A stretch of DNA of 64,000 nucleotides from Bdellovibrio bacteriovorus HD100 (GTDB lineage Bacteria > Bdellovibrionota > Bdellovibrionia > Bdellovibrionales > Bdellovibrionaceae), in NCBI RefSeq assembly GCF_000196175.1, contig NC_005363.1, positions 372,001 to 436,000 on the forward strand. Reading direction: 5' to 3'. Shown in pieces: positions 49,852-52,147 of the stretch. The first letter of the stretch is position 1. Each line of letters begins with the position of its first letter. A model generated the notes under the pieces. It was not told where the DNA came from. It ran no database searches and worked only from the letters and a program-made list of their open reading frames with translations. The position numbers were made by a program, and so were the translations under genes.

Positions 49852-51429
49852 CTACAGACGGAAGTTCTTGCCGTTGACCGGAGTCGGACGGCAAAGACCT
49901 GCCTCCAGTGGACGCTGGAAGACTTCGACCGCACCCGGAGGAATCATCGCGCGGCGATTGAAGATGCCGTATCCGCCCTGAGGCAAAGCCACGATCATGT
50001 CATTCAAAAGCTGACGGTTCAGACCCGGAACCAGCAAGATGGGATCAAATGCCACCATCACACGAATGGCTGCCGTGGTTTGCACGGGTACACCCCCACG
50101 AGCAACGACATCACGGATTTGTTCCGGGATTGGATTGAAGGCCACATCAACAAAACAGTTGGGACCTGTCGGACCAAAGCCCAACAAGTTCAAAGACAAT
50201 CCACGCTGTTCCCAGTTGTGTTTGGAGCTGACAGCATCCAGTAAATCTTTGCGAGTCATGCGTGGTTCGCGGGATTTCAAAATTCCCAAACCTGCAGCCA
50301 CAATCGCCGCGGAATTGGAACTTCCACGATATTCAGTGCCATCAGACAGCTTGATGGAAGAAGGCGCCAGAAGATCGGGTTTGTCTTTAAAGAACGAAGT
50401 CGAAGAACGGTCCGAATCACTTGCACCCACCGTGATCACCGTCGGGTTGTCAGCAGGATTCAAGATACTTTCACCACGGGAATGGGAAGGCATTACCAAA
50501 CCATCACCATCAGCCGTGATACGCAATTGATCCCGGTTGGTGAAATTGTTGGATCTGTTTTTCACACGCAGGAAATAAAGCCCCGGAGAAAGTTCGGCAG
50601 AAATGATTTCACGCGGGTACTTGGAAAAGCCCGGACGACCTTCATTGCGGTTGTCCGATTGTTTCAAGGCGCTGTTCTGAATCACATTCAGCATGTCATC
50701 AGTCAGAGCTAAATCCAGATCCTTGGTGGTGCCTTCTTCAACATCATCTTTGAAGTCATTCCAGGAAAGAACAATCTTCGCCGAACATTTTTTCCCAGCC
50801 GCCGCCTGACAGCGCAAAGCCAGAGCATTGTTCTGATCCGGCAACAAAACCCAATTATCCTGAACAGTCGTCAGCGGCCCATTGTAAGTGGTCAAAGCAA
50901 AGTTACCAGCCGCATTCACCCAAATGACACCCGCACGAGTGGCACGGTTGACCTCAGCATTGATAAAGCCACCACCATCCCCATTGCCACCGTATTCCCA
51001 AACCTCAGAATAAAGAACCAGGTCATATTGACGAGCAATCACATCATCAATAGCCGCTTTGAAATTGGAATACCCAAAAGCATTATACAAAGTCAGCTCG
51101 GGCATCCACTGAGAAGCACGCAGATCATTCGTCATCATGGCCGTCAGAATCTGCGCCATCTTCAACCCATGCACGACCTTCAAATTCTCAGGATTCGCCA
51201 CCGGCCCGGCAACATACCGAGTCCCCGCCGGCAAAGTACGCCCAATCTCTTTCTCATACCCAAAGAAACCTTTATCAAGAACCGCAACCTTCAACTTGCG
51301 CCCTGGATTCTGCGAAGAATAATACGGCGTAAACCCCAATGAATTTTTCAATGAATCCGTATTAGTGAATGGAGACGCAAAGGCAGAGGTCAGACCAAAA
51401 GTTAAAGCGAGAAAAACGAATGCTTTCAT
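49852..51429 (-). CDS. Secreted subtilase (S8-family serine protease)
   Basis: The 525 residues start with a signal peptide (to SAFA). The catalytic triad fits: Asp52 in VAVLDKGFFG, His87 in VVHGLKMAQIL, and Ser371 in RGSSNSAAIVAAGLG, with KPDLLAPS just before and oxyanion Asn around 172-176 (VNAAGNF). The usual GTSMAxP is GSSNSAA, so substrate handling may differ. There is no long pro-peptide. An inserted region (about 205-300) and a C-terminal extension flank the core. It is probably secreted to digest or process proteins of prey. Confidence 0.87.
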   Translation of the reverse strand: MKAFVFLALTFGLTSAFASPFTNTDSLKNSLGFTPYYSSQNPGRKLKVAVLDKGFFGYEKEIGRTLPAGTRYVAGPVANPENLKVVHGLKMAQILTAMMTNDLRASQWMPELTLYNAFGYSNFKAAIDDVIARQYDLVLYSEVWEYGGNGDGGGFINAEVNRATRAGVIWVNAAGNFALTTYNGPLTTVQDNWVLLPDQNNALALRCQAAAGKKCSAKIVLSWNDFKDDVEEGTTKDLDLALTDDMLNVIQNSALKQSDNRNEGRPGFSKYPREIISAELSPGLYFLRVKNRSNNFTNRDQLRITADGDGLVMPSHSRGESILNPADNPTVITVGASDSDRSSTSFFKDKPDLLAPSSIKLSDGTEYRGSSNSAAIVAAGLGILKSREPRMTRKDLLDAVSSKHNWEQRGLSLNLLGFGPTGPNCFVDVAFNPIPEQIRDVVARGGVPVQTTAAIRVMVAFDPILLVPGLNRQLLNDMIVALPQGGYGIFNRRAMIPPGAVEVFQRPLEAGLCRPTPVNGKNFRL

Positions 51430-51477
51430 ACATCACTCCTCAAAATACAAAAGGTATTCAACACGAGTTTGGTTGAG

Positions 51478-51598
51478 CCCTTAGGAGGAGATTTAAGCTG
51501 GAGTCGACCTCCGGTCAGCGGATGCGTTGGCCGCGAAGCGGACAGACCGGCGAGGGCAGGAGCCCGAGTCGACGCAAGCTTAAATCTCCTCCTAAGGG
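51478..51598. repeat. 121-base inverted-repeat element with 22-base perfect arms
   Basis: CCCTTAGGAGGAGATTTAAGCT starts with the arm at 51478-51499; its exact complement is at 51577-51598. Inside are two GTCGAC sites, a further pairing of CTCCGGTC with GACCGGCGAG, and a GC-rich core with GCGTTGGCCGCGAAGCGGAC. It lies between the tyrosine-rich gene and the subtilase start. No T tract follows on either strand, so it is not a simple terminator. It may be a repeated intergenic element or a structured RNA. Confidence 0.8.
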
Positions 51599-51625
51599 CG
51601 GCTAGCAAGAGCCGCCGTCCGGAAA

Positions 51626-52021
51626 CTACCAGTAGTAGTTCGAGTAGTAATAGTAAGAATAGTACCCGTAGTTATACGTGTAGCATGGTGTGTACCAGTT
51701 GCCGTACCAGTAGACGTAGCTGTAGTAGTTGTAACCGCTGTAGAAGTACCAGCTGGAAGCCCCACCATCCTGATCAAGTTCGTTGCGAACGTTTGCAGAT
51801 TGGTCGAAGGATCCTGTTTGTGCCAGAACCTGCGCCTGAGCGTCGCTGGTCACAGCTTGTTCAGTTGCCAGTACCGCTGTTTGGTTGTTGCGGTTATCAA
51901 CACGGATCACCACAGTGCCGTTCATGGACTGATTGGTTACCGAAGACTCGTTATCAAGTTCGCCCGCAAATGCAGAGCCTGAGCCCAACACAAGAGCTGC
52001 TACCAAAATAAGGTGTTTCAT
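51626..52021 (-). CDS. Tyrosine-rich secreted protein
   Basis: Start ATG at 52021 follows TTAGGAGG. The 131-residue product has a signal peptide (to SAFAG, about 19), a middle section of Gln/Asn/Val-rich repeats (VTNQSMNGTVVIRVDNRNNQTAV), and a last 45 residues dominated by Tyr (YSGYNYYSYVYWYGNWYTP, YGYYSYYYYSNYYW). Such domains can form amyloid-like or dityrosine-linked surface layers. No homologous family is known to me. It ends 28 bases before the long inverted repeat. Confidence 0.8.
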   Translation of the reverse strand: MKHLILVAALVLGSGSAFAGELDNESSVTNQSMNGTVVIRVDNRNNQTAVLATEQAVTSDAQAQVLAQTGSFDQSANVRNELDQDGGASSWYFYSGYNYYSYVYWYGNWYTPCYTYNYGYYSYYYYSNYYW

Positions 52022-52147
52022 CAATGCCTCCTAAATGGCTCTTAATTTGCCTCCGTTTTATGCTTTCAGGGGCTCATGTCATCTGAAAAAGCCTTGTTAT
52101 TCGAAAGTCCTTGACGCAGGAAGACCGCGAGCGGTACGGGCTAGCGT

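Follow-up and report, generated by a model that had tools for sequence, protein, structure and literature searches.

The large palindrome that lies between two genes of Bdellovibrio bacteriovorus HD100, at positions 51477-51599 of the window (the whole stretch of 64,000 nucleotides analysed here), is on balance, and with moderate confidence, regarded as one of a family of low-to-moderate-copy, dispersed and non-autonomous elements of the Bdellovibrionota that are probably mobile and would act as folded single-stranded DNA. Its relatives have a common branched centre, here called the head, on a stem whose sequence is specific to each locus, and this combination therefore points to a probably mobile repeat rather than to an ordinary terminator. 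No description of the family was found in the open literature, to which the search was confined, and the family is apparently previously undescribed.

The inverted repeat, originally predicted to have 22-base arms and lying at 423,477-423,599 of the genome, is real and slightly larger: its perfect arms measure 23 bp (51477-51499 and 51577-51599), or 32 bp with two mismatches (51477-51508 and 51568-51599), with 59 nt between them. Among perfect inverted repeats of the 64-kb window with loops of up to 150 it is the longest, while 40 first-order shuffles of the window gave longest perfect arms of 10-14 bp. Both strands fold far more stably than shuffled sequences, with energies of -80.8 and -78.5 kcal/mol and z scores of about -9.7 and -9.5. 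The two arms form the stem P1 on the plus strand, and the GTCGAC sites of the original prediction, two in number, face each other in the inner part of this stem as its opposite sides. Also on the plus strand, the P3 arm of the head (51511-51550), in which CCGGTC (51511-51516) pairs with GACCGG (51545-51550), encloses the P4 hairpin CCGC-GAA-GCGG (51531-51541), which varies family-wide in sequence and length. The conserved motif (51552-51565) reads GGGCTCCTGCCCTC on the minus strand, where it forms the hairpin GGGC-TCCT-GCCC, and GAGGGCAGGAGCCC, with an AGGA loop, on the plus strand. A covariance-model match on the minus strand (51497-51579; G000:C1:423497-423579; E 3e-14) covers the repeated head and 12 bp of P1. 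The neighbouring genes are both on the minus strand, as originally noted, and encode a 525-aa subtilase (Peptidase_S8; 49852-51429) and a Tyr-rich protein of 132 aa that looks secreted and has no Pfam match (51626-52024). A small hairpin, GGCGGCT-AGCAAG-AGCCGCC (51597-51616, strand unassigned), extends over the element's final three bases and may be the old terminator of the neighbouring gene or part of the element boundary; a related hairpin, GCGGCTC...GAGCCGC, is present at the element-free locus of genome G011.

Reading of about 120 places with the conserved motif distinguished two types that have its hairpin in common. In type A, which includes the window copy, the repeated centre of ~80 nt is a three-way junction of P1, the GGGC-AGGA-GCCC hairpin and the P3/P4 arm, with the consensus P1 - (A/T)C - hairpin 1 - TC - P3 [P4] - AGG - P1' and with a long P1 stem as its hallmark. 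In type B the common hairpin is followed by a CCCC-TTCG-GGGG hairpin and then by a hairpin resembling a bidirectional terminator, AAAAATAGCATCCTGCTATTTTT. Covariation of P1 and P3 was already seen in a sequence-only alignment of 23 members, from which number the first covariance model was built. The members that this model added have an altered hairpin 1 stem (CGC/GCG, GCTC/GAGC) and keep the TCC-containing loop, so that the conserved hairpin stem covaries in other family members as well. Over 69 distinct sequences, in an alignment that was fitted to the model and is hence biased towards the tested structure, 93.6% of cells were paired, compared with at most 50% in slid controls, and 439 double changes were observed versus 132 in shuffles, none of the 500 shuffles being as good; P3 covaries over the same sequences, with 98% of its cells paired. 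At three loci (L163, L164 and L173, in G181 and G184) the P4 hairpin is apparently swapped for an insert of about 100 nt.

The suggestion of a mobile-like or repeated element is supported for the head, which recurs both within the genome and elsewhere in the phylum and is absent from orthologous loci of relatives. The 121-bp unit as such is unique in the genome because its arms are locus-specific. A BLAST search of the element against its own genome returned only itself and a few short, weak matches, the best of which (38 bp) belongs to a second element, whose centre is the same and whose arms are wholly different; the covariance models likewise find two copies in HD100, the second at 3,086,148. 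The 24 Bdellovibrio genomes contain 46 occurrences of the motif GGGCTCCTGCCCTC, spread over 15 of them, and none of the reversed pattern, and exact matches to the motif 15-mer number 119 in 50 of 369 phylum genomes versus 2 for the reversed control. With the second covariance model, whose copy counts are lower bounds as 12 candidates per genome were scored, 68 of the 369 phylum genomes and 22 of the 24 Bdellovibrio genomes carry the element. The carriers belong almost entirely to the order of Bdellovibrio, with some in family f26, and the same kind of search, used as a negative control, found no elements in 129 genomes of the sister family f12. When one copy from G013 served as a nucleotide query, G015 yielded about 28 matches of the size of the head (~80 bp) and G010 about 19, and most of these stop at the arm boundary. 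A GTDB-wide scan for the exact motif returned Bdellovibrio-related records and about half a dozen single matches in other taxa, which were treated as chance matches or mis-binned contigs.

Several arrangements of the head were recorded in addition. At L133 and L134 (G216) and at L332 (G217), units of about 100 bp that each include a head are arrayed in tandem, and inverted pairs of heads about 220-250 bp apart occur at L271, L278, L228 and L330; the L271 pair, as read by eye, sits between rplL- and rpoB-like sequence. At L274 and L279 (G013 and G015) a related hairpin with 42-bp arms lies directly upstream of what by eye is SRP-RNA-like sequence.

The stem differs in sequence from copy to copy and is almost perfectly complementary in each, with a median P1 length of 36 bp and a maximum of about 70 among 68 members. 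Between HD100 and G006, whose adjacent protease genes are 97% identical, five substitutions and a 2-nt indel in one arm are all mirrored in the opposite arm (counted by eye). In the orthologues L008/L009 the left-arm sequence of P1 is replaced and its pairing kept; the AGGAGG that had been taken for a Shine-Dalgarno-like sequence is lost in orthologues, whose arms read AGGAATGGGG, and that reading is not supported. At L276 (G013) and its G015 orthologue the head and flanks align, and the mid-stems are unrelated yet paired in each. Similarity at the outer boundary is weak and is seen only in one Bdellovibrio subgroup, most arm sequence being locus-specific, and when a third copy of the arms was sought near each element, nothing beyond tandem duplications and inverted partner copies came to light. 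Bacterial genomes do not normally keep large palindromes stably. It has been described that template switching in replication creates and repairs stems without G.U intermediates (PMC8794818), and we infer that the same process keeps the arms matched here.

Orthologous loci differ in whether they carry the element. The gene pair that flanks the window copy is syntenic in 12 genomes, four of which (G000, G003, G006 and G007) have the element, while the other eight keep both genes and lack it. With multiple copies at unrelated loci and presence or absence between relatives, the family has the distribution expected of dispersed mobile elements in general. One element-free orthologue, L213 (G011), has at the same position a 13-bp inverted repeat, GCTTTGAAATAAG...CTTATTTCAAAGC, without the head, which is possibly a remnant of the element. 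Empty sites were looked for at two loci, L275 and L276. Opposite L275 (G013), the G015 site has only a 14-bp hairpin with a 20-nt loop, the head and the inner right arm being missing; because the junction shows microhomology, deletion in G015 is as plausible as insertion in G013. G013, which bears the element, has an inverted copy of the loop sequence of this short hairpin. Separately, type B relatives from several families (L181, L182, L183, L184, L199 and L202) adjoin tRNA genes (Ser, Glu), and there the flank past the conserved hairpin repeats, in direct orientation, the tRNA 3' end from the T-loop, a copy that at L183 extends through the terminator (about 65 nt); this looks like integration at tRNA genes.

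The two strands of the element are not equivalent. Across 83 elements, arm mismatches read on the motif strand were pyrimidine.pyrimidine rather than purine.purine in a ratio of 161:23 and A.C rather than G.T in a ratio of 69:29, and in the locus-specific arms beyond 12 bp the same ratios were 72:14 (p 1e-10) and 53:19 (p 8e-5). A smaller, earlier count (12 G.T and 14 A.C) had shown no wobble asymmetry, which emerged with more Bdellovibrio copies. It follows that the opposite strand, the plus strand of the window, carries G.A and G.T mismatches, and these are the mismatches that a folded strand tolerates best. The plus strand is also the more stable one in 61 of 72 whole elements with DNA energy parameters, which are approximate, and in 51 of 72 with RNA parameters; for heads alone the figures are 59 of 72 and 36 of 72, respectively, although the former does not represent 72 independent observations because the heads are homologous. 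We take this asymmetry to reflect selection on a single folded strand, which is more likely to be DNA than RNA.

A mechanism consistent with these properties would begin with single-stranded DNA, exposed on the lagging strand or during conjugation or repair, in which the plus strand of the window would fold into a giant hairpin. A putative enzyme that processes single-stranded DNA would then recognise the head and move or copy the element; the arms would be free to drift because only their complementarity would be needed, and polymerase template switching inside the hairpin would copy changes from one arm to the other. It is also conceivable, albeit improbable, that the enzyme reads only the branched head and that insertion makes an inverted copy of the target flank, so that each copy acquires its own stem; the G015 loop found inverted in G013 and the direct copies of tRNA 3' ends in the tRNA-adjacent relatives are hints in this direction. 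Several observations weigh against a mobile single-stranded DNA element: Y1/RAYT genes do not adjoin the copies and have no match in some carriers, HD100 has only two copies, the near-empty site of G013 and G015 is ambiguous between deletion and insertion, and a check for a target-site duplication around the window copy found none, direct repeats of at least 4 nt being absent from its 30-nt flanks.

Other explanations account for part of these data. The large structured RNA that the original prediction offered, namely a non-coding RNA or an RNase III-processed RNA element made from the plus strand of the window, whose AGGA loop could bind a CsrA-like protein, is unlikely but deserves consideration, since strong folding, covarying helices and the strand-asymmetric mismatches would all suit an RNA of that strand. 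CsrA sites present GGA in a hairpin loop, and the first plus-strand hairpin loop of the element holds GGA in nearly all copies. RNA stems, however, usually carry several per cent of G.U pairs, which are nearly absent here (4 of 1423 cells), and type A orientation to genes, as judged from crude ORF-based gene calls, is random (28:26 for upstream and 20:21 for downstream genes). In addition, no Rfam 15 covariance model scored above its gathering threshold in the window and only sub-threshold look-alikes of miRNA models appeared in relatives, no sigma-70-like promoter was found near the window element, and the element is absent from the eight attack-phase sRNAs mapped in HD100, a set that does not list growth-phase RNAs (PMC3627812). 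A fixed 3'-UTR RNA element had also been considered on the basis of an early 65:36 bias towards the strand of the upstream gene and was rejected: that count mixed both types, and type A shows no such bias. Maintenance of the arms at the DNA level, the intergenic position and the random orientation would fit a chromosomal DNA structure, such as a cruciform or a protein-binding palindrome involved, for example, in chromosome organisation, that spreads by recombination without a dedicated enzyme. This is a rather improbable account, given that a cruciform should use both strands equally, whereas the mismatches are 7-fold strand-asymmetric, and that related species differ widely in copy number, with values between 0 and about 28.

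The link to RAYT transposases (TnpA-REP), which are common in the genus Bdellovibrio, and hence to REP/REPIN-type repeats moved by them, was tested in two rounds and found no support. The element is palindromic, intergenic and dispersed, it forms inverted pairs (L228, L271, L278), and, within the genus, genomes with more RAYTs tend to have more elements (Spearman 0.52, p 0.009, uncorrected for phylogeny). On the other hand, none of 20 inspected RAYT loci has the element beside it, some of them carrying GGGGTATCGGTCA repeats instead; the carriers G001, G014, G201 and G251 have no Y1_Tnp match, while several element-free genomes hold many; and the size and locus-specific arms of the element are unlike those of REPs. 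Together these data make movement by RAYT very unlikely. About 2 kb beyond the window, at L250 (G000:C1:438277-438351), a RAYT gene is directly followed by a perfect inverted repeat of 21 bp (loop of 33 nt) that lacks the head of the family. The location of the window element, 26 nt past a stop codon and with genes of one and the same strand on both sides, would be in keeping with a large but ordinary terminator of the upstream gene or with a hairpin in its 3'-UTR; this reading is nonetheless hardly credible, as the absence of a terminator-like T tract at the element, already pointed out in the original prediction, is borne out, the orientation of the family is random and the head is conserved across unrelated loci.

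The family is a form of dispersed palindromic DNA that is restricted to the phylum and apparently new, and a mobile single-stranded DNA element of the kind favoured here would stand close to several known systems. It resembles REP/REPIN sequences and their RAYTs in consisting of dispersed intergenic palindromes, sometimes in inverted pairs, that probably act as folded single-stranded DNA with strand choice. REPs measure 20-50 nt, are tagged with GTAG or CGTC and have stems that are conserved within a family (PMC3733652, PMC8266576, PMC3116915), whereas the element measures about 120-200 bp, with a three-way-junction head, locus-specific stems and copies without a neighbouring RAYT. It is about 120 bp in the window, its copy number is two in HD100 and about 28 in G015, and no unpaired GTAG or CGTC tag was found, the bases beside the conserved hairpin being (A/T/G)C and TC, and GTC on the other strand belonging to the paired P1. 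Integron attC sites and IS200/IS605 ends are recognised as one folded single strand, attC sites having a conserved stem base without a branched head. By analogy, the element would likewise be recognised as one folded strand; it differs in its branched head and in having no integrase or TnpA linked to it. MITEs are characterised by terminal repeats that are conserved and, in most cases, by target duplications. These and the RU/ERIC-like palindromes of enterobacteria (RU: PMC2759123) are similarly of about 100-200 bp, palindromic, intergenic, non-coding and dispersed, but in the present family it is the middle that is conserved while most arm sequence is variable, no terminal inverted repeats are common to the copies, and the window copy has no target-site duplication. 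Multi-base compensatory stem changes without G.U intermediates are also seen in the hairpins maintained by template switching (PMC8794818), although those were described for RNA genes, and the stems of the element are far longer and differ between copies.

In conclusion, one order of predatory bacteria possesses a branched hairpin that is conserved, with stems that vary in sequence from locus to locus and nevertheless stay paired, despite the usual instability of palindromes. If it is truly a mobile single-stranded DNA element, it would join REPs, attC sites and IS200/IS605 ends as a new architecture and would imply an enzyme that handles it; either way, the family provides a natural record of concerted evolution in the arms of palindromes.
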